Positions 1-62,740 of a DNA stretch of 64,000 bases are shown one piece after another. The stretch spans positions 124,001 to 188,000 of the forward strand of contig WBVU01000008.1 in NCBI GenBank assembly GCA_009192285.1, given 5' to 3'. The stretch is from Morchella semilibera (lineage: Eukaryota > Ascomycota > Pezizomycetes > Pezizales > Morchellaceae). Each line of letters opens with the position of its first letter. Position 1 is the first letter of the stretch. The notes under the pieces were generated by a model, which was not told the DNA's origin, ran no database searches, and saw nothing but the letters and a program-made list of their open reading frames with translations. The translations under genes and the position numbers were made by a program.

Positions 1-541
1 ACCCACTATATGCATGTAGCGAGGAAAAAAGACGGCTCAATCCGGGAGTGGCAAACGCTCGGCTTAATGTACTGGGACAGACTACGATAGATGGTGTGTC
101 GGACTGTATATCTGTGTGTATGAAATCATGGAGCATCACTCGACGCCAAGAACTCTCCTTTCCGAGGTTATGCAGGTACGGGGCACGCACCGATGCCAAG
201 CCACCAAGCACCTAATCCCGCAATGACGAACGGGGCCGGGCTGAGCAGGGTGAATAGAGTCTTTTATCCACGGGCGTTCGAGCGTTGCAATGAGAAATCG
301 AGGTAGAAGAGCTAGGGCCCTGGCACATACATGCAGCTTGCATGAGAACTTGGTCTAAATAAGTAATATCTCAATATCAGGCGGGGTGAGTTGGGAAGTA
401 TAGGTTGGGGTTGAGAAGCGGAGGTAGAGAAAGATCAACACCACAATCATTTCAACCTCAACCCCATCCAACCTTAACCGTGCTCTCGCTATTGAGGATT
501 TCCGATCTAGAACTATACCTTTCTTCCTATAATCACATACA
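1..541. other. Non-coding stretch upstream of the transposase gene
   Basis: No coding region is supported here. Near 220-240 it carries a short sequence, GAACGGGGCCGGGCTG, that recurs at about 48750 inside a TIR element, so part of it is probably a decayed copy of that element. I could not find a terminal inverted repeat that would fix the left end of the neighbouring transposon. Confidence 0.4.
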
Positions 542-1606
542 ATGAGTAGAAATATTCTTGAAGAGGTTCCTGTCCAGCATCGGGAGATACTACAAAGGTC
601 CAGACCCGAGTTGATGTTCCTCTATCTGACAGAAACTCTTTTCTTCTGTCAAGCTCCTAGAAAGTGTCGCATCGATTTCTCTACTTTGACCGACCATGAA
701 TTTGTCCACTTTACCCGATTCAGCTCATACGACATTGTCTCAATATCTACTCTACTTCGGCTACCCAAAAAGTTCACTATTCCTGCTGGTTCCCCTTTTA
801 CCGGTCAAGAAGCCCTCTTCCTACTTTGCGCTCGTCTTGCTTGGCCAACCCGTTTGGAAACCATGCAATACATGTTTGGATATCATTATACCGCAATATC
901 TCAATGTGTAAACTGGATTTTACAGTTTATTTTACAACATTGGGACTTCCTTTTGACAAACTTCGATTCAGGCCATTTGTCACCCAACCGTCTACAACAC
1001 TTTGCACAAAAAATCAGAGAGAAGGGTGCTCCTCTAGATAAATGTTGGGGATTTATCGACTGTACTATACGGAAAATATGCCGACCATCTAAATGGCAGC
1101 GTGACTGTTATAATGGCTATAAACATATGCACGCTCTTAAATATTCAGCTGTCAAGTGTCCAGATGGTCTCATTTATCATTTATATGGTCCATTGGAGGG
1201 AAAAAGAAACGACAATTCGCTTTTATATGAGAGTGGGCTTCTGGATCGCTGCTATAAGCATGCAAATAGTTATTACATGTTTGGTGACCCCGCATACCCT
1301 CTCTCGACGGTCCTACTATCTCCTTTTAGTCATTTGGTACGTGATTCGACCGAAGATGAAAAATGGTTCAACAAAAGTATGAGTGCATGTAGAGAAGCGG
1401 TAGAATGGGGATTTGCAGATGTGTTAAGACTGTGGACATCATTAGACTTTTCTTCAACTCAACGTCTATTTAATTCTCCTGTTGCAACTCAGTATCGCGT
1501 TGCAGTACTGCTTACAAATATTCATATTTGTCTTTACGGCTCAGAAACTACTTTATATTTTGATTGCGCTCCACCGTTACTGAAGGACTATTTAAAATGT
1601 ACTTAA
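542..1606 (+). CDS. PIF/Harbinger-type DDE transposase (DDE_Tnp_4 family)
   Basis: This single-exon reading frame of 354 residues would catalyse cut-and-paste transposition in the nucleus. The DDE superfamily 4 pattern is complete. The first aspartate is in GFIDCT (D173) and is followed by YNGYKHMHALKYSAV and the GKRNDNSLL segment. The second is in MFGDPAYPL (D249). The glutamate is in REAVEWGF (E288). An N-terminal helical region (TGQEALFLLCARLAWP, residues about 85-105) is typical of the family. The start is the first ATG after an upstream stop, and nothing interrupts the frame, so it may be functional. A convergent gene starts 116 bp past the stop codon, as in two-gene Harbinger elements. 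I could not identify the element's terminal inverted repeats. Confidence 0.88.
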   Translation: MSRNILEEVPVQHREILQRSRPELMFLYLTETLFFCQAPRKCRIDFSTLTDHEFVHFTRFSSYDIVSISTLLRLPKKFTIPAGSPFTGQEALFLLCARLAWPTRLETMQYMFGYHYTAISQCVNWILQFILQHWDFLLTNFDSGHLSPNRLQHFAQKIREKGAPLDKCWGFIDCTIRKICRPSKWQRDCYNGYKHMHALKYSAVKCPDGLIYHLYGPLEGKRNDNSLLYESGLLDRCYKHANSYYMFGDPAYPLSTVLLSPFSHLVRDSTEDEKWFNKSMSACREAVEWGFADVLRLWTSLDFSSTQRLFNSPVATQYRVAVLLTNIHICLYGSETTLYFDCAPPLLKDYLKCT

Positions 1607-4268: not shown

Positions 4269-6484
4269 ATGTACGTCTACACCGGCAATTTTACCTACTG
4301 TGAATACGCTCAGGAAGAGCTCTTCACACTGGTCCTCCCCCGCTCTTTCAACCTAGGTGACCCCGCCCTCGCCTACTGGCACTGGACCATCTCTGGCAGC
4401 GGGCAGCGCAACCAGCCCAGCTTCATGCGCGGCCTCATCGACTCCGTCACCCCCTCTGCCCACACCACAACATTAACGCTCTTTGACAACTCCTATTACC
4501 ACCTCACACTAATTCTTCCCCACCCCCAGCCTCCCAGCACCCTCCTCATGATTTTCACCAGCCGAAACGGCACCTTCAGCATCGGTACCCAGCTAACGCT
4601 ACGCCATGCTGACGACGGCCTCGACCTCTGCCGAGTCTACACCGGTGCGCTGACCTACTTCGAATATGCGCTTGCTGTGCCAATCGTGTTTGTGTTGCCA
4701 AGTGGCAAGTGGGGGGCGGGTGAGAGGATTGGGGCCTACTGGCAGTGGACGGTGGATGGGAAGGGCGTAAGGAAGGTGGTCGTGGACAATCAGGGCAGTG
4801 TGAGTAAGTTTGTGGAGGAGGGGGAGGAGAGGTGGGTAGAGTGTTTTGCGGAGTTGTATTATAGCTTTGTCGGTGTGGTGAGAGGAGAGGGTGAGGAAGA
4901 GGGGGGGGAGGAGGTGTGCTTGACAATGTGGAATCAGAGCAGGACGGATAGGAGTTTGGAGGTGGTGGGGAGGTTGCGGTACGTGGGGGTAGGGGGGAAG
5001 GTTTGTAGAACTCCCCTCCTATGCGTATACATATTTGAAGAGATACAGAGAGATGGGAGGCTGTCATGGTATATTTCCATTCAGGTTATATATCTCCAGT
5101 CACTCAACATACTCTTCATCATATTCATATTCTGTATTTTTATATACTCCTTTAATTCCCCACTAACCGCCCCATCCGGCCCCCCCTTTAGACCCCCGAT
5201 CCTCTCAGCCCACCCTCTGGCTCCAGCTCCAGCTCCAACTCCACCTCCATACACCCACTCTCCAAGATCAACCCCTCCACCTTCCACCTCACAACCACCT
5301 TCCACCCCCACTCCGTCACGCACCCACCGCCCACGCAGGCACCCTCCCCACATCACCCCTCCACCCCACAACAATCCCAAGCTGGCACCTGGACCGACAC
5401 TCGACTCATTGGCTCCGGCGGCTTCGGCAGTGTCAGTCTACAAACGTGTAGCGACCGCGAGGGCCAGCTCCGTGCTGTGAAAAAGCTCCCGCTGGGGATG
5501 CGCGGTATTGACTATCACCGCGAGCTGAGGGCATTGACGTTGTTATCTGATGTACGTATGAGCCTTTTTCTGTGGAGAACGAGACCGAGACTCACGCGGG
5601 CGGGGGAAGGGGGATAGAGAGCGGACCTATTCATAAAGTTCCTCGGCTGGTACGAGAATACGGATTTCGTTTACATAGCGATGGAATACCTACACCATGG
5701 CGACCTAGCACAGTACATCCAGACCAATCCCGCCGGAGCGTCCACCAATGCCCGCCCAGTAACCATACAGCTGCTTTACAGCCTCGAGATCTTGCACAAG
5801 CGCAAGATCTGCCATCGGGACCTCAAGCCACCCGTATCTTCCCCCCCCCCCCTCTCCAATCTTTCCCTCCCACCCGTATCTCCCCACCCCCTGCAATCTT
5901 TCCCTCCCACCCGTATCTCACACGTACTAACCCGCACCTCCACCCGTGTGTGGATCGCGATACGGCAGAATGTCCTCCTCGTGGCCCTAGATCCAATCCG
6001 CGTCAAAATCACCGATTTTGGCATCTCCAAACAAATGGCCGGCACCCAGCTCCGCACGCACTGCGGGACAACAGGCTATATCGCTCCAGAGATCATGGGG
6101 TTTCTGCCGCGCTCGGGCGGGGACTACACAAATGCGGTGGATATGTGGGCGCTTGGCACAATACTGCATGAGTTGCTTGTTGGCGTGATCCCTTTTGCTG
6201 AGGAGGAGGAGGAGCGGGATGAGGATGAGGAGGAAACCATGGCGACTGAGAGTGTGGTGTGGATGAGGCAGGTGAATAGCTATATGCTGCATAGGTATTG
6301 CAGTGGGTCGATGCCGTTCCCGGAGGAGATGTTGATACAGAGAGGAGTGGGAAGTGAGGCAAGAGAAGTGGTGAGGGGGTTGATGGTGCCGGAGCCGGGG
6401 AAGCGGTGGGGGGTGGAGACTGCGCTGGCGAGTACGTGGTTGGCGGGGGGGAGGGCGGGGGCGCCGGAGGGGGAGGGATTGTAA
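4269..6484 (+). CDS. Serine/threonine protein kinase with a duplicated N-terminal module
   Basis: I read four exons, 4269-5000, 5192-5551, 5618-5833 and 5969-6484, all joined in phase 0, giving about 607 residues. The kinase domain (about 312-600) is complete. It has a glycine loop GSGGFGSV (from G318), lysine K341 in AVKKL, E355, hinge MEYLHHGDL, catalytic CHRDLKP (D432), TDFG (D452), and GYIAPE before DMWALG. The ATG follows a TATA-like box. Residues 1-120 and 121-240 are tandem copies of one beta-rich module, each starting around YTG..TY.EYA (Y4 and Y124) and containing YWHWT or YWQWT. I do not recognise this module; it could play the part an FHA domain plays in Chk2-like kinases. A Ser/Pro-rich linker (about 245-310) joins the parts. 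The catalytic half resembles the second kinase at 23.3-24.6 kb. Exon borders are inferred; the first intron could instead begin a few bases upstream. Confidence 0.8.
5834..5968 (+). repeat. Kinase intron 3, with repeated splice-donor-like units
   Basis: This 135-bp intron separates the HRDLKP motif from the DFG motif. It has a good branch site (CGTACTAACC) and ends in GCAG. The 5' splice junction CCACCCGTATCT occurs three times, at its true place and twice more within the intron, each followed by C-rich sequence and CAATCTTTCC. The intron therefore contains a tandem duplication of its own donor region. Confidence 0.7.
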
Positions 6485-22043: not shown

Positions 22044-24610
22044 ATGGCTGAGGATATTCGTGCCATCATCGATCATTACGAACTCAGCACAAGTTTTCAC
22101 AACCCGCGCGCTGGTGATGTTATACACACCACCTACGAGAACGGAGTGGCTGTACAAGAGTGGTGGGCTAAAGAACGCTGTCTCTCTTCCGGGGGATCCG
22201 GGGATGTATTCCTCGAAAGGAGTTCGAGGGGGCAGTGTAGGGCCGTGAAGAGTTATCCAATTAGGGGAGATATAAACACCACGCGGTGCAATGCTATCGT
22301 CAGCTTGGCAAATCATCGAGATGTAAGTTTGTGTGTAAACAGAGGGGCTTATCCCTCAGCGGAGAAAAGATAGACTTGTTAATATTAAGGTGGTTTGACT
22401 TAGTACCAAGGGCACTTCGCTCATCTTTTGGGCTGGTTCTCGTCGGAATTCCATCTCAATGTTGCGATGGAGTTTACTGAGTTCGGTGATCTGAGCCGCT
22501 ATATACAACACCAGGAAATTAGAGACAACACGAGGGATATTACGCGGCAGCTTCTCAAAGGTCTTGCTGCACTGCATGAGCTATCCATAGTTCATCGAAA
22601 TATCAAGCCTGGGGTAATCCCCAACTCAGACTTGTTCTCAGGTGCCATTAGATGTTAACTGACCACGCAGCATATACTCGTGGCCTCCTTAAAGCCAGTC
22701 AGGGTGAAAATTGGCGGCTTTGGGCTTCTTCAGCTTCTCGACCCAACCGAGCGGCGTACAACGGTCGGAACATCGATGTACATGGCGCCGGAGTTGCTCG
22801 GCATTCTCCCCATGGGGTTTAGGCGCATCTCTCCCGCTGCTGATATGTGGTCAATGGCTGCTTGGTCCATGAGTTGTTAACATCGATGACGCCTTTCCTG
22901 GAACACCCAGACGTATCCAATGACACCAAATCAAGTATATTTGACATATCAACTCCGTCCAGCTTCCAGTTGGATTTTGCCCAGATGTTGAGGTTTTGCA
23001 GGGGGGATATTTCATTTCCCACTGATATACTCCATTCAGCGCAAGCTGACACGCAAGCGATCGAATTTCTCAAATCTCTTCTCAGACCTACGCCAGATCA
23101 TCGCCTTACGGCGGCAAAAGCGCTGGAAAACCCTTGGCTTATAGAGGCAGGTGAACAAGGGATGGAGGTTCCCGACCTCTCTATGGGGATAGAAGTGGAT
23201 GTTGCTGTTCCACCTGTAGCGCCGGTAGTTCTAGGATCGGACTTGCCTAGGGCGGGGCCGCGCAGCTGGAGTGACTATAGGATGAAAACTATGGTGTCGG
23301 AAACTGTCGATAATTACGTCTCGTATGATCGCGGCGGCCTTGAAGAGATCTGGCGTACTGTAGACTTGTTAGGGGTTGGTGGACAAGGAAGGGTTTACCT
23401 TCAGGGGTGCGCAACTACTGGCAGTATCCGGGCGGTCAAGGTGATTGCACGTAAAGACCAGGGCTCTGTCGCACTTCCTACTGGCGATCGTCCACAGGTA
23501 GGCGATGAGCATGAGAGTCGGAGGAACCTAATTTACCTCAATCGTGAACTACGCGTGATGGTTACTGTTCGTGAGGTATGTCACTCTCTGACATAACGAT
23601 TCAAGCATTATCTCACGGTTTGGGTTAGCACAACGACCTATTCGTCCAGCTACTTGGCTGGTATTTAGGTGAAGAGGATCTCTTTCTGGCTATGGAGTTT
23701 GCCTGTTGTGGGGATCTCGGGGGGTATATGCAACAGAATGAACATGATGCCCGAGCCCAGTGTACGCCGATTACAGCGCAGCTTTTGTTGGGACTCACCA
23801 TCCTACATTCCAATGGGATCTGCCATGGGGACATCAAGCCAGAGGTAGTAGCATCCAAAGCAAGCTTTAAGGGGATAGCATCGGCTAACGGTGGGTCTCC
23901 TAGAATGTCTTACTTACTTCCCTTCGCCCAGTCCGGCTCAAGCTCGCCGACTTTGGGATTGCAACCTTTACGAGTGAAGGTGAAACACGCAGGGCCATGG
24001 GAACATGGCCTACGCGGCTCCAGAATTACTTAATCTCCTTCCATCATCACAGGAGACTAGATGCAATGTAAACAAGGCTGCCGGAGCTAGTGACATGTGG
24101 GCGTTGGGCTGTATCGTGTTTGAAATTGTCACAGGTCAGATACCGTTCGCACAACGTCCTCAAGGCCTACACACCGCCGCATTTCGATGTCGTCCGGTCT
24201 CGACATTAATGACTGGGATATTACATGACGGTCAACCCGAACCTGACCTCCCGCAACACTGGCGCCGATCACTCAATCTAATGTCCTTGCAAGATTTTTG
24301 CAAAGGCCAAAATGGCCTCCCGATGCACGTATTACGGTCTTCCGGGTGCTCATCTATCGCTACCCTCCAGGCCTTCATTGAATGTTTACTGAAGGCCGAA
24401 CCTAGAGACAGATTGACAGCGGCTGAGGCCCTGAATCACGACTGGATAACGGGTGGCGCGCAATGTCCGGAACGAATGCACCCTTCTTTGGGTTCCGGTA
24501 TTAAACAAGAGCAGGACAATTTACACACTGTAGATCATCAGCAAATGCCCCGGCCTACAGGGGCGTCCGTCATGGACAATGAGGCCAGTCCTCAGCCCAT
24601 CCATTTCTGA
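22044..24610 (+). pseudogene. Tandem two-kinase gene: pseudokinase followed by kinase, two frameshifts
   Basis: Exons read 22044-22322, 22404-22613, 22671-23575, 23629-23844 and 23904-24610, joined in phase 0, for about 773 residues. Kinase 1 has a degenerate glycine loop (GGSGDVF), lysine in RAVKSY, HRN in place of HRD (VHRNIKPG), and GGFG in place of DFG. It ends with MYMAPELL, DMWSM and a C-lobe, so both catalytic aspartates are lost. Kinase 2 has GVGGQGRV, RAVKVI, HGD with its aspartate kept (CHGDIKPE), ADFG and YAAPELL. A linker joins them in one uninterrupted frame (22847-23575), so they are one gene. One base is missing near 22855 (kinase 1 C-lobe) and one near 24004 (just before MAYAAPE). 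Unless these are sequencing errors, the gene is broken. Kinase 2 resembles the kinase at 4.3-6.5 kb. Confidence 0.72.
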
Positions 24611-53155: not shown

Positions 53156-53428
53156 TCAATTAGACGAGCTCACGGGCACGGGGTGTGGGGATTTTCTACC
53201 AAAATTGATTTTCAAATAGATATAATGAAACGAAATTAGGGTCTTTCAGTAGAGTTTTTTTAGCCAACGACCATAGAAGAGTCCGAGACATTTTGGGCCC
53301 CCAAAGGGTTGCACTGTCAAGGTATTCCTAATTCCATGTAGTTCTAATGCATGCCTGCCCACGTCATTGATTTACACCCAGGAGCTGAGATCTGAGAGTA
53401 GCGAGTCAAAGTTAGCCCCGAGTAATTA

Positions 53429-53550
53429 CTCGCAATTTCATAGCGTTTTTGAACACGACTAATATTGCATACACCCAAAAAACCGCCAAGACTACATTTT
53501 TGTATGGCATGTAATAGCGGTTGTGTTCAGAAACGCTATGAAGTTGCGAG
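53429..53550. mobile_element. Small TIR element, TA-CTCG family (copy 3, nearly palindromic)
   Basis: The left arm CTCGCAATTTCATAGCGTTT, then TTGAACACGACTAATATTGC, and the right arm are inverted over roughly 48 bp of this 122-bp element, leaving a loop of only about 25 bp. TA flanks it (53427-53428, 53551-53552). Same size and end bases as the copies at 3431, 12350 and 61555. Confidence 0.78.
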
Positions 53551-54084
53551 TAGATTCGCTGAAGTCCTCTAGCCATCAACGAATAAAAAATACTTGTTTG
53601 TTCCAAGACTGCCAAGATATGCAAGTTAGATGCAGGTAGATTGTGATATAACATTTTCGGCGGCAAGACTGAAAGATACGCATGGTGATATATTCAATCC
53701 TTATGTCTACGGCTTCCCTCCAAGAGTACTTGTGGGCCCCTATGTCGGCTATGAGGCAAGCACATGTAAGCGCTGGATCAGAGGGGGAACCACTGGATCT
53801 AAGTACTCGCTATCCTCCATAAGAACCTGAGAATGCAAGCGACAAAGACAGGGATAATTTGTAAGGAGAGTCGTCTTGGCCATACGTATACAAACATTGA
53901 GACCTGCATTTTCAGGTTCATATGGTGGATAGCGAGTACCCCGCTTCCCTGCTCAGCGAGATTCCTGCTCAGTGGGTTCACATACAAATATTCCTTTGGC
54001 TCTAGATTTCATGTGGTGGAGGGCTATAATTCGTGGTCAATAGGGAAACGGAGTAATTGGTAGGGGATCCGGGGGAGTGAAGAA

Positions 54085-54335
54085 TCCACCATTCCCTAAA
54101 ATCACTGTTATTCCCTTAGGTTTACTGCTATTCCCTGGAGTTCACCGCTGTTCCATATAGTAGACTGCTGTTCCATACAGTAAACCGCCATTCCATACAG
54201 TAAACCGCTGTTCCATACACTAAACCGCTGTTCCCTGTTGTTCCTAGAACATATCAGTTCGGGGTCGAGGGTCAATTCTACAACTCGCGGTCGCGGGTTG
54301 GCTCACCCCTAGTAGAAGTAGTACTAGACTCTACA
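54085..54335. repeat. 20-bp tandem repeat plus CTCGCGGTCGCG core
   Basis: Eight units of 20 bp (consensus TAAACCGCTGTTCCATACAG) run from about 54085 to 54240, more diverged toward the left. They lead into ACAACTCGCGGTCGCGGG and CACCCCTAGTAG..GTACTAGACTC. Single-unit relatives are at 8225, 12030 and 12700. Confidence 0.75.
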
Positions 54336-54938: not shown

Positions 54939-57900
54939 ATGCCTTGTGAAAGGATATGGGAGTGCGAGACCCTCCGGTCGAGCGAGGAAGGGTATTTCGA
55001 TCATGAGCTGGTGTTGGCGGCGGCGAGGGGGGAATATAATGAGATGAAGAGGCTTATGGAAGTCTCAACGGAGCCTCAAAGAGACACGGAGACAGTCCCC
55101 GACGCTCGCAGCAGGGCCTCATTGATCACAGGGACAGTGATGTGGATGACAGAAAATCGTGTGTGGCGGAATTGTAGTACAGGAAGCATGGGATTGTATG
55201 CGGCGGCCCTGTGCGGACAGGAGATAATTGTGCAGCTGCTGCTGGATGACTATAAGGTGAGTCCCAGCGCAGCTGTCGAAATAGGCGGCATCAGCAGGAC
55301 GGCTTTAGTGGCGGCAGTGAAGGGCCGCCACGGGAAGGTGGTGCAGCTACTGTTGAGTCGAGGAGCGGATGTCAATGCACCTGCTGCGGAATATGCTGGT
55401 AGAACAGCTTTACAGGCGGCGGCGGAGGGTGGGCACGAGAAGGTGGTGCAGCTACTATTGGGTCGGGGAGCGGATGTCAATGCACCTGCTGTGGATGATA
55501 CTGGCAGAACAGCCCTACAGGCGGCAGCTGAGGGCGGACACGAGAACGTGGTGAAGCTACTGCTAGGTCACAAAGCGGATGCTAATGCCGCCGCTGGTGC
55601 TAAGTCTGGTAGAACAGCCTTAGGGGCGGCGGCAGAGGGCGGACACGAGAAGGTGGTGAAGCTACTCTTGGCTCGAGGAGCGGATGTCAATGCACCTGCC
55701 GCGGAATATGCTGGTAGAACAGCTTTACAGGCGGCGGCTGAGGGCGGACACGAGAAGGTGGTGCAGCTACTGTTGGATCGAGGAGCGGATGTCAATGCGC
55801 CTGCTGTGTATGAGAATGGCAGAACAGCCCTACAGGCGGCAGCTGAGGGCGGACACGAGGAGGTGGTTCAGCTACTGTTGGATCGCAAAGCGGATGTCAA
55901 TGCAGCCGCTGGGGTCAAGTCTGGCAGAATTGCCCTACAGGCGGCAGCAGAGGGCGGGCACGAGGAGGTGGTGTGGTTACTGTTGGATCACGAAGCGAAT
56001 GTCAATGCACCTGCTGGGCAAGGTGCCGGTAAAACAGCCCTACTGGCTGCGGCGGAGGGCGGGCACAAGGAGGTGGTGCAGCTACTGTTGGGTCGCGGAG
56101 CGGATGTCAATGCACCTGGTGAGGAATATACTGGCAGAACGAGCTTACAGGCAGCGGCGGAGGGCGGACACGAGATGGTAGTGAAGCTACTGTTGGACCA
56201 CAAAGCGGATGTCAATGCACCTGCGGCGGACTATACTGGCAGAACAGCCTTACAGGCAGCGGCTGGAGGCGGATACGAGAAGGTGGTGCAGCTACTGTTG
56301 GATCACAAAGCCGATGTCGATGCACCTGCTGCGGAAGATGCTGGTAGAACAGCCTTACAGGCGGCGGCGGAAGGCGGACACGAGAAGGTGGTGCAGTTAC
56401 TGCTGGATCACAAACCGGATGTCAATGCACCTGCTACGGATGATACTGGCAGAACAGCCCTACAGGCGGCGGCGGGGGGCGGGCATGGTAAAGTGGTGAA
56501 GCTACTGTTGGGTCACGGAGCGGATGTCAATTCGCCCGCTGGGGTCAACTGTGGCAGAACAGCCCTACAGGCTGCGGCGGGGGGCGGGCTGCGGAAGGTG
56601 GTTAAGCTACTGTTAGATTGTGGAGCAGATGTGAACATACGCGCGGGATGGAAGGAAGGTAGAACAGCCCTACAGGCGGCAGCGGAGGGTGGACATGAGG
56701 ACGTGGTGCAGCTACTGTTAGATCACAAAGCGGATGTCAATGCACCTGCTGCGGATGATACTGGAAGAACAGCTCTACAGGCGGCGGCGGGGGGCGGACA
56801 CGAGAAGGTGGTACAGCTACTATTAAATCGTGGAGCGGATGTCAATTCGGCCGCTGGGGACAAGTCTGGCAGAACAGCCTTACAGGCGGCGGCGGAGGGC
56901 GGACACGAGAAGGTGGTGCAGCTACTCCTGGATCACAAAGCGAATGTCAATGCACCTGCTGCGGAAGAGGCTGGCAGAACAGCCTTACAGGCGGCGGCGG
57001 CGGGCGGGCAACAGAGGGTGGTTAAGCTACTATTAGATCGTGGGGTCGATGTGAACATACCCGCCACATGGTGGGAAGGTAGAACAGCCCTACAGGCGGC
57101 GGCGGAGGGCGGCTACGAGAAGGTGGTGCAGCTACTCCTGGATCACAAAGCGGATGTCAATGCAACTGCTGCGCAAGGTGCTGGTAAAACAGCCTTACAG
57201 GCTGCGGCGGAGGGCGGACACGAGAAGGTAGTGCAGCTACTATTAGATTGCGGAGCGGATGTCAATGAACCTTATCATGAAGTTGATGGTAGAACAGCTT
57301 TAGAGGCGGCGGCTGAGGGCGGACACGAGAAGGTGGTGCAGCTACTGTTGGGCCGCGGAGCGAACGTTGATGCGGGCGCCGGGTTGGAACGTGGGACAGC
57401 CCTACGCGTGGCGACTGAGGGCAGATACTCGCGTGTGCAGGCCTGGCTACTTCTTGCTGGAGCTGATTTCGGTTGGTCGGCCGGTAGCGAAGGGCAGAGC
57501 TTCCTCCATTATGTATGCACTCCCGGCAGGGCCCATATGCTGCCTGAGCTTCTAAAGAACAGCAGTCCTCAGGTCGTCAATGCCAGAGACCATTCTGGAT
57601 TAACACCTCTACACCTAGCTGTTAGGAATGACCTTTTGGAATGCGTGCAGCAACTACTCACCAAGGGTGCAAACAAGGAAATCCAAGATGCAACTGGGAA
57701 TACGCCACTGGCGATGGCTCTTGACATTCCCAACAGTAGCATTTTCAAGCTTCTTCTCGAGAAAGGTGCCAGCACAGACACGATTCCTACAAGCAAGTAT
57801 CTCAAATGGCTAGATGACCAAGGAATCAGGAATGATCACGATTGCATGCTCATATCCGATCACCCAACAGAGGGCCGGGACATCACAGAGACGAGATGGT

Positions 57901-59816
57901 CTCAGCAGAAAGTCTCATCGTTTAGGAATCTCCTAAACAGAAGATCCATTCTTTTCCAGAGGTTAGTATTCTGTTCCTTAAATCTATTTTTCATCTGCGG
58001 AGAATGACCGTCCTATAAGGTCCAACCGACGCGAGACCCCCGAACCCCCTGCATATCAGGGTACATGTGTTGGTCTTCCAGGCTACCCAGATTCGGAACC
58101 AGATTTACCGGGTTCGGTGGTCCGGTGCATGTGGGCAACGGCTGAGAAGCCGAGGCACTATGGTGTGTTAAATTTCGTGCCCGGTATTCCCAGTAACCAG
58201 GAGATTCTGTCTCTTAGCCCCGCCTCAGGTAAATAATTCCCCAAAGGTCTGTTCCATATAGTTTACACAGCTAACAAAAAAGTAATTCTCATTGGTCATG
58301 CGTGTTTTATCTGGCCACCTCCACACCCGCCGCAATCGACCGCCACGAGCCCTTCAAAGGAGGTCATTCCATCGTTCCAAGCCGGGACCCAGGCGGTTGA
58401 AATATCCTGGGTAATGTCAAACAAAAATCAAACCATGGCGGAGGGATCAAATCAACCTATGAGGTTCATCCACTACCGATGTACATTTTCGCTGAAGCTG
58501 CTTGCTATCCCCTGCCACGGGGTCGAGTTTGTTGCCTGGTTTCTTCGCGAGATAAACCGCCGATGGGTGGAGCTGATTGCCGGCGCCAAGTCCCATCTAG
58601 CGCAACGGGTGAGTATCTCGTCTCTAATATATTTACTATCTATACTGAGAAACGTCTAATGGCCTGGTCCGTGACCAACAGCGATCCTCTCAGTTGCTGG
58701 CAGCAGGCAAGAATCCCACGATAATCAGCTCCTTGTTGCAGGACAGCCAGGAGTGGTACCGACTCCGACAAATCTGGCGGGAACACTACGAGAAATCGTG
58801 CGACCTTCTCCAGCAATTTGAGGAACATGACGTTTTCAGGAGCATCTCGACAGACCACGATTTCACAAGAACCCATGATGCGACGGCCCAAGGCGCTCAC
58901 ACCAACACAGCTAATGGATTAAACAGAAGAAAGAAAAAAAGAGGCACTCAAAACAGGCCGCCTCTAATCGAATCCCTCCGGGATCAAGTCAAGTACCTTA
59001 GAGAGGATTGCGGACAAGCATTATCGGAACTGGACAAGGAAACAAAGGAGCTTATCGAGTTGGTGAGATGTTCAATCATGGGAATTTAGACGAGAAAGTG
59101 CTAATCGTTCTATACCGCCTTCAGGAGTTCAACCTTGTTTCGATTTTTGAAGCCCGCAGCTCCCTTGACATGGCCAAATTGTCCTGTGAAATGGCCAAAA
59201 GATCCATTGAAATGGCCGAGGTGTCCAATGAGATGGCGAGGAGTATGAAGAGATTAAGCTGGATTACCGTAAGCTGAATCCGCCCATTGGTGAACCAATA
59301 CCGTGACTGATGTTCTCCATAGTTTATTTTTCTACCATTAATGTTTATCTCGGTGTGTATCTCCCGGGTGGAGTTTTCTAAGGTTTTTCTGACAGGTAAC
59401 AGGGTCTGTTTGGCATGAATGTGAATCTCCTGAGCGATAACCCAGCATGGCAATGGTATTTTATTGTCGCGGGCCCTTTTTCAGCCTGTGTTATTATTAT
59501 TTCTCTTTTGTGTAAATACCTTCCGGTATGGAATCCCCAGGGACGATTAACTAGATGCTTCGGCTAAGCAGCTGACACCGTACAGATTACGGACCTCATG
59601 AAAGGAATCGACGAACGCCTACAATTGGCATTTTCCAGCGATATCTCAAGCTCAACAACAGACAGAACGAGTGACCATCAACAGGTTCCTACCGGAAAGG
59701 AATCTTTGAACAACCAAGGATTGTTCCTCAGGATGTCGGGCCTGCGGAGAAGGCCGATGCCTGACTTGGAGAGCCCACGGCCTGTTGAATCCAGGACACC
59801 TAGCCTCCAGCAGTAA
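54939..59816 (+). CDS. Ankyrin-repeat protein with C-terminal CorA-like membrane domain
   Basis: Eight exons are phase-consistent: 54939-57961, 58020-58228, 58271-58608, 58682-59062, 59125-59268, 59323-59352, 59403-59525 and 59586-59816; about 1492 residues. Residues about 86-960 hold some 25 ankyrin repeats, 20 of them almost identical 35-residue units (type GRTALQAAAEGGHEKVVQLL). The C terminus carries YRCTFSLKLLAIP and WFLREINRRWVEL, a charged helical region, EFNLVSIFEA with SMKRLSWIT, membrane helix 1 (FIFLPLMFIS), the CorA signature LFGMNV (G1379-M-N), and membrane helix 2 (WYFIVAGPFSACVIIISLL). CorA proteins are pentameric Mg2+ (or Zn2+) channels whose GMN loop selects the ion; fungi have ankyrin-linked relatives of uncertain transport function. 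Membrane helix 1 is encoded by a 30-bp exon. I see no stop or frameshift. Exon 2 uses acceptor CCTATAAG at 58019, the only one keeping the frame. Confidence 0.82.
55297..57396 (+). repeat. 105-bp coding tandem repeat (20 ankyrin units)
   Basis: Twenty consecutive 105-bp units without length variation lie inside exon 1. Variation clusters at the surface-facing positions around GADVNAPAAEYAG (for example APAVDDTG, AAAGVKSG, IRAGWKEG, IPATWWEG, EPYHEVDG), while the helix core (TALQAAAEGGHEKVVQLLL) is nearly constant. The minus strand is open in places only because of the repeat. Confidence 0.85.
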
Positions 59817-61554
59817 GGATTTGATTTTACTGCTCTGCAATGTATAGAATATTACAATGGGCAGGGGAGGGGTGGGGGACGGGCAAGGGAGGGATACATA
59901 TGTCCTCTTTGCAGGTGCGGAGCTCTGGATATGGAACTTGGGAGCGGATGGCTCTGTCTCGGGGAAACTCTTTATCTACATTTCATTAGCCACAGTGTTA
60001 TTATTAAGTATGATGTAAATGAATGGCATTCGTTACCTACTTGTGACATCTGGTCCTTCAAGGGGGGTGAGGGGGGCTTTTAGTAGTGTTATCGAGCTCC
60101 TCCATCATAATGACAGGTCGGGAACCTCTGGGGGGGCCGGAAATTAGCATATTTTTTTTATCTCTCTTAGTAAATAATAGATCTCACAAAAGATTCCATT
60201 CCCCTATCATGGGAGGTGACGGACCATAGGATAATTTTATGGCCTTTTTTTTGGTGCGAGGTTCGGTTTAGGGCGAGCGCCGACTCTGCCGGCCGCGGGG
60301 GTGTCGTACAACAGTGATTATGAGACTGTCTGTCCTAGAGGGATGATCGAGCCATTCAGCTCCCGATGCATTTGGTTCTAGAGTCGCCAAGCATAGGTTG
60401 TGAGCCCTAATAGCCCACAATGCCTATGATTACTAAAGCTACTCACCGTTTTTAACGGTCTTCCTCTGATCACCTTTGGATCCTCCCAACCCACACAGAC
60501 CGTCACCATACGATGTCTCAGGCCCCCCACCCTGGGGCCCTCCGTCCGCGAGATATGCTAGGTCAACAAAAGAGAGGGGAGGTGACATAGGAAAAAGGAG
60601 AAATAAGACAGGCGAAGTAGTGTCCCCTCCGTGATCCCCGCGGATTCTCCCCTCCCTTCCTCCCCATACCCCTTCACTACAAAAGATCCATCTTTTGTCA
60701 CAACCCATCACTACCCATTATTGCATATTTCCTCGCCACCCAAAGACCCACGCCCTATCACAACCCACGCCCTATCACAACCCACGAACTCTACCATCTC
60801 TCTACCTAAATTCTCTCCCTACCCGGCCCCCTTATTTTCCCTTCCCTCCTCAGGATGGTGCTTCACTTTGCCAACCGAATACAGCTCTTGACACTTATCA
60901 AATTAGCTGCGGATCGGATGCTGATGCAGCGACATCTCTGTCATCCGTCGCCACCCCCGGTATTCCCGGCATAGCCTTGCGCCCCGCGTTGCACTTCACT
61001 CACAAAATCAAAACCACACATGTCACACATGTTCCACTGTGAGTGAGCAATCCAGGGGGCGCAGTTCGCTGGGGCATTATGTTAGAATACGCCACCACGC
61101 GAGAGGAAGAGATATATTTGGGGTCGAACCCTCAAGTGATAATCCCTCTCTTCTCCTTTACATTCCGGGCCAGGAAACGCGGGCCAGGAAACGCACCCCG
61201 TCCATACACGTCCTAATATTACCCCCAAGCCGCCCCCGTGGAGGGGCGAACGGAGGTTTGACGCGACGCTGCAGTACTCCGCGATATTGGTACGTGTATT
61301 CACTGTGTCCCCAATAGTAAGGCCTCCCTATTCAAATAATGCAAGAAGCAGCATTCCTAGGAGAGGAAATTTGAACCTCGGGAACATCAGTTTGCTTTGG
61401 ACAATATTCTTGCACTCATGGTTGAAAACAACAAAGCCGTCCATGGGCAGGTGGCGTGGCAGCAAGGGTCCTGCCGGCGCAGTACAACCAACATCCAATT
61501 AGAACCTCGCAGGGCCTTAGGTATGTAGACATAGGGGTACCTTGGTATTTACTA
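59817..61554. other. Non-coding stretch
   Basis: It contains a fragment of the TCCCTTAG element (about 60173-60220) and three near-perfect 18-bp units (CACGCCCTATCACAACC type) at about 60746-60790 within C-rich DNA. Frames here have no recognisable protein. Confidence 0.4.
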
Positions 61555-61672
61555 CTCGTATCGTCCTGACGTTTGTAAATGGGACCACTATTGCATACTA
61601 AAACTTGGGCTTGGCGTGTATATGTATGGCATGCAATAACAGTCATTTTTCCAAACGTCAGGAAAATACGAG
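61555..61672. mobile_element. Small TIR element, TA-CTCG family (copy 4)
   Basis: The left arm CTCGTATCGTCCTGACGTTTG and right arm CAAACGTCAGGAAAATACGAG are inverted with two changes, flanked by TA (61553-61554, 61673-61674). The interior GGGCTTGGCGTGTATATGTATGGCATGCAATA is shared with the 3431 copy. Confidence 0.8.
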
Positions 61673-61674
61673 TA

Positions 61675-62740
61675 GAGTGTATTTACCAAGTGTCAAAACC
61701 CACAATTTACTTTACCACATTAAAATGTAGGTTGCCGAAACTGACTCGGGCTGCAGGTGGGGATGTAGGATACGCCTAGATACTTATGTGTACTATTCTG
61801 TGTGTAAGTTATATCCACCAAGCGTATTCACAGCAATGGTGAAGAGTTATTTATCTACGCTCTCCTATCATCCTTCCTGACGTGGCTAATTAGTTTACTG
61901 AGGGTAAATGTCAATATCCCCCCCCACAGCCGTCATTCACCTTTCTGGCTTCATTTCTTAGTTATTATAGGATCTGCAGTCTCCCCGGTAGTCAAAAGTG
62001 GAGCCAGAAAGTGGTTGCCACCGATCGGCGTTACCCTCAATTTTGAGAGAGACAGATTCAGCCACCAAGAACAATAATCTATTCTGGTATCACCTTCTAG
62101 CAAAATTTAGAGACTTGAGAGGCAGGAGCAATCGCTTCTGAATTCTCATATGGGGAACCTTTATTAAAAAATATCCCCATTCGATGATTTTATAAGCTTA
62201 GAAGGAGTGGGGGTCGAATGACCCGCTAGATCACCCCCTAGTCAAACTTGTGGCTGGAGGCTTCAGCGCTTGGCTTCTTAATGCCAGGTTTGTCAAAAAA
62301 AGACTCCTGATCCATCAGCGCAAAGGACCTATTTTTGACCAGATCTGACACCTGGTACATACGCTCTACTATGCGGGTGTGGTTATAACTGTTACCCACC
62401 TACATAGCTACAGTCCTACTACTGGCCGCCTCCCTACCGGTTTTGGCTGCCTCTTGCGGGTTCTATTTCTGTATCTAGGTACAGTCGCAACTCGAGATGC
62501 CGGATCTCAATACGCTTGACCCCTTTTGCCCCGTACGAAACTCTGGCGGGGGGCGGATTTAGTTCTCTTGCTGTAGAATTAATTTGCTATCCCGAATCTC
62601 CTAGGAATATTTAATATCTTGTACGAAATTGTTAGAATCTTGGCAATCCGGCATATCGAGTTACGACTGTAGTATGAACCAAGCAGATTGTACAAACATT
62701 ACAAGAGAAAGGCTGCCAGTGGGCCCGAGATGTACTACGT
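61675..62740. other. Non-coding stretch
   Basis: No supported gene or element. Frames are short and lack features. Confidence 0.4.

Follow-up and report, generated by a model that had tools for sequence, protein, structure and literature searches.

AN6960 of Aspergillus nidulans and an accessory-chromosome gene of Fusarium oxysporum are each annotated as coding for a protein that combines ankyrin repeats with a CorA-like Mg2+ transporter part, according to the accessible portions of the two reports (PMC5371717, PMC12345182). Fungal Mg transporters of the ALR/MNR kind carry two C-terminal transmembrane (TM) helices with an F/W-GMN motif, FGMN being described as the ALR-clade form in the available part of the source (PMC4945025). 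CorA expansions have also been reported, in the excerpts at hand, for a lichen fungus and for Scedosporium. With respect to ankyrin arrays, the consulted sections of Dyrka et al. 2014 describe repeat turnover and variability of hairpin and inner-helix positions in fungal NLRs (PMC4986451). A literature search, whose coverage left out most subscription papers, returned no characterised ankyrin-CorA protein.

Here we analyzed an ankyrin-CorA gene found in a 64,000-nucleotide stretch of the Morchella semilibera genome, called the window below. A preliminary description of this gene remarked that CorA-like tails accompany ankyrin repeats in some fungi, in agreement with the Aspergillus and Fusarium annotations.

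Gene model

The gene occupies positions 54939-59816 of the forward strand, and its model comprises eight exons coding for 1488 residues, with a single terminal stop codon and none internal (Table 1). This agrees with the initial proposal in its coordinates and start codon, in the count of eight exons and seven introns, and in the presence of 20 ankyrin repeats and the GMN signature. The introns measure 58, 54, 73, 62, 54, 50, and 60 nt and have GT/AG ends. All splicing was deduced from the sequence alone: introns 4 to 6 are supported by a scripted comparison of 11 loci, intron 7 by a GT common to the tails after TM2, and introns 1 to 3 only by reading paralogue translations by eye. For the start of exon 3, the scripted pattern was too loose, yielded chance matches, and carries no weight alone.

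In the scripted check, the tail junctions downstream of exon 1 were found again in 9 to 10 of the 11 loci. A GT within a Val codon, usable as the donor of intron 7, directly follows the end of TM2 in 9/9 intact ankyrin-first tails (eight identified by pattern search, plus L048). Because this GT is kept, an eighth exon was preferred, and a gene end at the first stop codon past TM2 (59565-59567) was rejected. The GIPxxQ-type motif of exon 2 is also present in some paralogues (L035, L039, and L034), and the soluble region of exon 3 is kept across the paralogues of alignment A2. The Pfam scan gave no match for the exon 3 region, nor, in the C-terminal part, for exon 8.

Table 1. Features of the ankyrin-CorA gene, with positions in the window.
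Feature	Position	Strand	Content	Basis
Exon 1	54939..57961	+	N-terminal region, the 20-repeat array, and additional degenerate ankyrin units	Open frame, Pfam, gene model
Ankyrin array	55293..57389	+	Twenty tandem 35-residue repeats, in register (last, 34 residues)	Period, register, identity, codon analysis
Exon 2	58020..58228	+	Linker region	Gene model, reading of paralogue translations
Exon 3	58283..58608	+	Soluble region (VILIGHACFIW ... EISWVM ... IPCHGVEF)	Alignment A2, Pfam scan
Exon 4	58682..59062	+	Helical-looking, runs up to the CorA stalk	Alignment A2
Exon 5	59125..59268	+	Stalk helix preceding TM1, 48 aa	Recurring donor and acceptor, lengths
Stalk heptads	59158..59241	+	Four tandem 7-residue (21-nt) units	TRF period 21, units listed, paralogue lengths
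Exon 6	59323..59352	+	Micro-exon, TM1 core (FIFLPLMFIS)	Recurring junctions
Exon 7	59403..59525	+	LFGMN loop and TM2	PF01544 match, alignment A1, hydropathy
GMN signature	59412..59420	+	Residues 1375-1377	Sequence
Exon 8	59586..59816	+	C-terminal tail and stop	Putative GT donor after TM2 in intact ankyrin-first tails

A gene family in the genome

Ten ankyrin-CorA loci, one of them frame-broken, were found in the genome, as well as two loci at which the fusion is in reversed order and lies in a single frame. Judged by sequence, the ankyrin-CorA fusion is an established gene family in this genome. Not all members have the same introns: intron 5 is missing from L034, and L038 has neither intron 5 nor intron 6, so that TM1 is read straight through. 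Alignment A2 comprises eight tails; L037, L038, and L046 were excluded from it, and L047 and L048 lie outside it.

The recurrence of the fusion makes it highly improbable that the gene model is an artefact, i.e., a pseudogene, or an ankyrin gene that adjoins a CorA gene unrelated to it. Introns 1 to 3 placed by eye, a model built from sequence alone, and a broken-looking paralogue (L037) would be in keeping with such an artefact, but the order of the modules is the same at ten loci, with the reverse order in one frame at the other two. Moreover, when the same number of substitutions per repeat was placed at random in 19 repeats, 9.7 stops were expected on average and no fewer than 2 arose in any of 2000 simulations, whereas the array contains none. 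This excludes chance, and, with the recurring tail junctions also considered, a pseudogene was rejected.

Other CorA-type genes with a GMN are present in the genome, and thus the window gene need not be the route of bulk Mg2+ uptake. Further CorA-type matches outside the tails that were read lie at C20:1.089M, C19:2.014M, and C21:1.168M. The window gene itself was absent from the matches of the PF01544 profile search of the genome, probably because of its short exons. Several family loci are close to contig ends. The idea of a subtelomeric family was dropped, as an exact telomere-type 24-mer occurs at only three places (C4, C9, and C10), none on contigs of the family. By coordinates, similar ankyrin repeats are found near NACHT matches at C3, C4, C21/C22, and C22.

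CorA-type tail

The tail is organized as stalk helix, TM1, FGMN, and TM2, with hydropathy stretches at residues 1356-1382 and 1386-1418 corresponding to two C-terminal hydrophobic helices. A PF01544 search of the C-terminal part, suggested beforehand in the preliminary description, located CorA in the C-terminal third (2e-12; 47.5 bits versus a curated cut-off of 27), with a match to profile positions 223-286 of 292 only. A family profile searched against the PDB matched Thermotoga CorA structures at E 1.4e-11; the match begins at profile position 185, and the alignment runs from the stalk end to GMN without gaps and has small ones in TM2. The proposed CorA-type two-helix GMN domain is therefore upheld by Pfam and PDB homology, but the match is limited to the TM part and the stalk end. 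No Pfam family was found between array and stalk in the scan of the 542-aa C-terminal part, and the classical CorA N-terminal alpha/beta/alpha domain was unrecognisable by sequence in the Pfam scan and the PDB profile search. The score against the TIGR00383 corA equivalog is below the cut-off (38.9 versus 200.75 bits). By this score, the window gene counts as a relative rather than as a corA equivalog.

PF01544 was matched in 8/8 tails of alignment A2. That the tail is a mere membrane anchor of an ankyrin adaptor, with a dead pore, is doubtful. Such a role would suit a protein in which only the stalk end and the TM part are recognisable as CorA and whose soluble region is without a family match, but an anchor needs no GMN, and GMN is retained in 13/13 tails read (that of L048, missed by the pattern search, was counted by direct reading). 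Furthermore, all 11 tails of alignment A1 have the Pro of TM1 and FGMN, and 10 of them keep the Met preceding TM1. The Met and Leu at the gate position of TmCorA are kept in the tail, and the position of TmCorA Asp277 is occupied by Ser in the window gene. CorA proteins have an N-in/C-in topology, and the array is thus predicted to be cytosolic.

Of 12 loci, 10 have a stalk exon coding for 27 residues; it codes for 34 at another locus and for 48 in the window gene, the stalk of L047 having escaped the pattern search and been counted by direct reading. The stalk of the window gene is thus three heptads longer than at the 10 loci, and both extensions are of whole heptads.

Ankyrin array

Exon 1 matched Ank_2 (2.8e-170) and Ank (1.4e-168) in Pfam, the Ank profile scoring 537.2 bits against a cut-off of 21.1, with 22 stretches matched at an E of 1 or below. 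A single-sequence fold of exon 1 had a mean pLDDT of 60.2 and a pTM of 0.42, with paired helices recurring in the array. Compared with the PDB, this fold had TM-scores by query of at most 0.28 among the matches listed, some of which are ankyrin proteins and many not, and these matches are given no weight.

The 35-residue repeats had been called nearly identical. All 20 are indeed in register, but their mean pairwise identity is only 70% in amino acids (51-91) and 76.5% in nucleotides (61-91); for 19 repeats compared over their 28-residue core, it is 80%. The repeat pattern search missed one of the 20 repeats of the window array and recovered the other arrays only in part. Differences at four-fold sites amount to 0.35 inside the window gene versus 0.55-0.78 to nine other loci, and the best match of the window repeats lies in the same gene in 19/19 cases. 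The window array is homogenised within the gene. Fast repeat turnover is no family-wide rule, since 6/10 arrays (L033, L034, L035, L039, L043, and L046) are without homogenisation, with four-fold differences of 0.62-0.78. A simple recent block duplication was rejected, as similarity is steady with distance (0.759-0.781 at lags 1-11). Allelic variation in repeat number was uninformative, C21 and C22 being 100% identical over 8001 bases here.

Hairpin loops are the usual partner-binding surface of ankyrin repeats. In the window array (19 repeats), dN/dS is about 1.1-1.2 for the hairpin loops (1.19 for positions 30-35, with a bootstrap interval of 0.76-2.12 that spans 1, and hence no significant excess above 1) and 0.20 (0.16-0.26) for the scaffold. 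The scaffold is under constraint while the hairpin-loop residues evolve fast. Point values for both were similar in L037 and L044 (12 and 4 repeats), and hairpin bootstrap values were mostly below 1 in L043 (0.26-1.09; 5 repeats) and L034 (0.15-0.46; 7 repeats).

Conceivably, the protein is an ALR/MNR-like channel or transporter serving Mg2+ homeostasis, with the array being only a platform for its trafficking, anchoring, or turnover and the loop variability reflecting relaxed constraint; we regard this as possible, if somewhat unlikely. It would account for the PF01544 homology and the GMN, and a hairpin dN/dS interval that includes 1 is compatible with it, as is the ALR-clade form FGMN in the available text of PMC4945025. 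It sits less well with a homogenised array, and with the presence, alongside other CorA-type genes, of twelve loci whose linked ankyrin repeats differ widely in number.

Discussion

The proposal we favor, at about even confidence, is that the window gene codes for a subunit of a CorA-superfamily cation channel whose pore may be controlled by a long, cytosolic, partner-binding ankyrin array. Five subunits would assemble as in CorA, and the five arrays would project into the cytosol, where their hairpin loops could bind a protein partner. Binding or release of the partner would be relayed along the stalk to the pore and change the flow of divalent cations, or else the array would fix the location of the channel. 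Changes in repeat number and loop residues might re-tune the choice of partner, a role already suggested for the repeat domains of fungal NLRs. All of this, from the partner and the ion to gating and any part in recognition, is inference. Several observations count against the proposal: the hairpin dN/dS does not significantly exceed 1, and in L034 and L043 is mostly below it; the N-terminal CorA domain is unrecognisable by sequence; Ser replaces Asp277 of TmCorA; the repeats are less alike than highly conserved NLR repeats; and six of the ten arrays lack homogenisation. The sensor or gated channel suggested in the preliminary description, likewise inferential, fits the data better than a passive tether because fast hairpin residues, a constrained, homogenised scaffold, and an invariant GMN occur together.

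A bolder proposal, which we hold to be improbable, is that of a non-NLR fungal recognition receptor, in which diversifying ankyrin arrays would read an intracellular cue, either self/non-self or effector, and open a pentameric CorA-type pore via a heptad-evolving stalk. The cation channels formed by plant resistosomes would be the counterpart of such receptors. Should the array control the pore, fungi would possess a ligand-controlled divalent-cation channel assembled from two widespread modules, as well as a repeat domain of the recognition type able to work without an NLR core. The natural series of stalk lengths (27, 34, and 48 residues) is a ready test of how a cytosolic domain is coupled to the gate via the CorA stalk.

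With Thermotoga maritima CorA (PDB 4eeb, 2iub, 2bbj, and 3jcf), the family profile shares a gap-free stalk end, TM1, and GMN. That protein has no ankyrin array, its N-terminal alpha/beta domain is unrecognisable in the window gene, and the stalk of the window gene is longer by 21 residues, which were omitted from the profile as mostly gaps. Like the ALR/MNR transporters, the window gene has two C-terminal TM helices and a GMN, whereas the accessible part of their description makes no mention of an ankyrin array (PMC4945025). It resembles fungal NACHT-ANK NLRs by its homogenised array with variable hairpin positions, although its mean repeat identity of 70% is below the >85% of the highly conserved (HiC) NLR repeats in the consulted sections of Dyrka 2014 (PMC4986451). 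Unlike them, it has a CorA tail in place of NACHT/NB-ARC, for which the Pfam scan gave no match in exon 1 or the 542-aa C-terminal part. In AN6960 and the Fusarium gene, compared by description alone, ankyrin repeats and a CorA-like part are also joined in one protein; WD repeats are additionally annotated in AN6960, and the available portions of these descriptions mention neither homogenised repeats nor a longer stalk, nor fusions in both orders (PMC5371717, PMC12345182). To this known fusion, the window gene adds a dozen-strong family and a lengthened stalk helix.

Gene model and splice sites

The window (G000:C22:124001-188000, from an assembly of 56.8 Mb in 23 contigs whose gene content and short introns suggest a fungus) holds a predicted spliced gene whose ATG lies at 54939 and whose stop codon ends at 59816, encoding 1488 residues with no internal stop. 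In this model, GT-AG introns of 50 to 73 nt separate eight exons (table). Substitutions placed at random, equal in number to those in 19 of the repeats, would be expected to create 9.7 stops, versus none observed. For the splice model, comparison among loci stands in for RNA: donors and acceptors were found in the same place for exons 4/5 and 5/6 in 9 of the 11 loci scanned (the window included), and for exons 6/7 in 10. The misses of L034, which lacks intron 5, and L038, which lacks introns 5 and 6, are informative, since both read TM1 uninterrupted in the genome exactly as the spliced window gene does. At the exon 4/5 junction L046 gave no match to the anchor patterns used. The GT taken as the intron 7 donor, within a Val codon immediately past TM2, is present in all nine intact ankyrin-first tails compared. 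Introns 1 to 3 were assessed by comparing paralogue translations by eye; the script meant to locate the beginning of exon 3 used too permissive a pattern and carries no weight. The open model and the recurring splice sites, read from genomic DNA, support the intact eight-exon gene of the preliminary description.

Features of the window gene, its surroundings and related loci
Feature	Location	Remarks
Exon 1	window, repeats from 55293	20 in-register 35-residue ankyrin repeats (last, 34 residues), then more degenerate units
Exons 2-4		soluble region
Exon 5		stalk preceding TM1
Exon 6		TM1 core, ten residues
Exon 7		LFGMN and TM2
Exon 8		C-terminal tail
Palindromic MITE-like elements, similar ends	window 53427-53552; 61552-61675	~1.4 kb upstream; ~1.7 kb downstream of gene
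20-bp tandem repeat	window 54144-54234	4.6 copies; start codon ~0.7 kb downstream
DDE_Tnp_4 transposase frame	window 533-1606	presumably Harbinger-type
Protein-kinase gene pieces	window 5618-6484; 22844-23596	
Ankyrin-first loci	window; C15:36k; C15:65k; C21:1.18M; C12:1.484M; C12:110k; C19:5.11M; C21:1.06M	
Ankyrin-first locus	C1:5.51M	array known from match coordinates only
Ankyrin-first locus	C23:108k	frame broken
Reversed loci	C21:2.416M; C21:2.424M	L046:5036-6250 and L047
NACHT matches	C3:605k; C4:1.503M; C21/C22:1.146M; C22:2.021M	~2.5 kb or less from window-like ankyrin repeats

CorA-type tail and stalk

The repeats match Pfam ankyrin models (best, 553.9 bits). The CorA-type GMN domain proposed earlier was borne out: PF01544 scored 47.5 bits, above its cut-off of 27, covering profile positions 223-286 of 292, and the profile of A2, an alignment of eight CorA-type tails, matched Thermotoga CorA structures at 1.4e-11, ungapped from the stalk end through GMN. 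Each of the eight members matched PF01544, and the seven others are 31-46% identical to the window tail. At what we take to be the Thermotoga maritima Met291 and Leu294 positions the residues are conserved; the Asp277 position is Ser. These comparisons establish homology to CorA and the anatomy of the predicted fusion.

Of the 12 ankyrin-linked loci, ten have an exon 5 that encodes 27 residues; in L035 it encodes 34 and in the window gene 48, the additions being whole heptads (7 and 21 residues). The window addition consists of tandem 21-nt units with 12-16 of 21 bases alike, unit to unit; 21 more helix residues would lengthen the stalk by about 30 Angstrom.

A family with two fusion orders

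Genome searches with tail and array, combined with reading of the sequence and counting identical contig pairs as one locus, identified ten loci in which an array precedes a CorA-type tail. Two others have the reversed order, with ankyrin repeats past GMN and TM2 in a single open frame. Because both termini of known CorA family proteins are cytosolic, the repeats would be cytosolic in either order. A similar tail at C12:1.449M had no ankyrin match within the 9.5 kb examined. Contig pairs C21/C22 and C12/C13 were 100% identical in each of four 8-9 kb stretches compared, reflecting redundant assembly or near-identical nuclei.

GMN was present in all 13 tails read (three further tail-search matches lie outside this count), and this invariance disfavors a tail that merely anchors the array through a dead pore. 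We propose that a CorA-type pore bears a cytosolic partner-binding array, and that partner binding may change channel opening or placement; that the product assembles, passes an ion, binds a partner and is gated is inference. The main rival is a plain Mg2+ transporter with the array as scaffold.

Homogenization and hairpin variation

Twenty repeats stand in register, as first described, but they are not nearly identical, their mean pairwise identity being 70% (amino acids) and 76.5% (nucleotides). They are nonetheless homogenized within the gene, where the difference at four-fold degenerate sites is 0.35, versus 0.55-0.78 to nine other loci, and all 19 repeats compared find their best DNA match in their own gene (72 of 101 over ten loci pooled). 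Similarity did not drop with distance along the window array. Within-gene difference is likewise low in L037 (0.14), L040 (0.37, 4 repeats) and L044 (0.38); arrays of L033, L034, L035, L039, L043 and L046 are not homogenized (0.62-0.78). The long L037 array (C23:103-108k), the family's most homogenized, has frame breaks inside it and again past GMN, from pseudogenization or assembly indel errors.

The most variable window repeat positions are 32-35, presumably the hairpin loop in ankyrin numbering. For the hairpin (positions 30-35), dN/dS was 1.19 (bootstrap 0.76-2.12, 19 repeats; 1.10 with 20), versus 0.20 (0.16-0.26) for the scaffold. The corresponding values were 1.11 and 0.28 in L037 and 1.21 and 0.29 in L044 (4 repeats only); contrary to this trend, L043 and L034 yielded no hairpin point estimate, and their hairpin bootstrap ranges were 0.26-1.09 and 0.15-0.46, respectively. 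The pattern points to relaxed constraint or to diversification; the data do not establish positive selection (dN/dS above 1).

Comparison with known systems

The literature searched yielded no functional study of an ankyrin-CorA protein, and no description of a local ankyrin-CorA family with two fusion orders, a homogenized ankyrin array on a channel tail, or a heptad-quantized stalk in such proteins. Fusions of this type are already annotated in A. nidulans and F. oxysporum, according to PMC5371717 and PMC12345182, respectively. In Dyrka et al. (PMC4986451), highly conserved repeats of fungal NLRs are defined by an 85% identity threshold; the window array, at 70% amino acid identity, falls below it. 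Its hairpin/scaffold pattern resembles that described there for the NLR ankyrin repeats.
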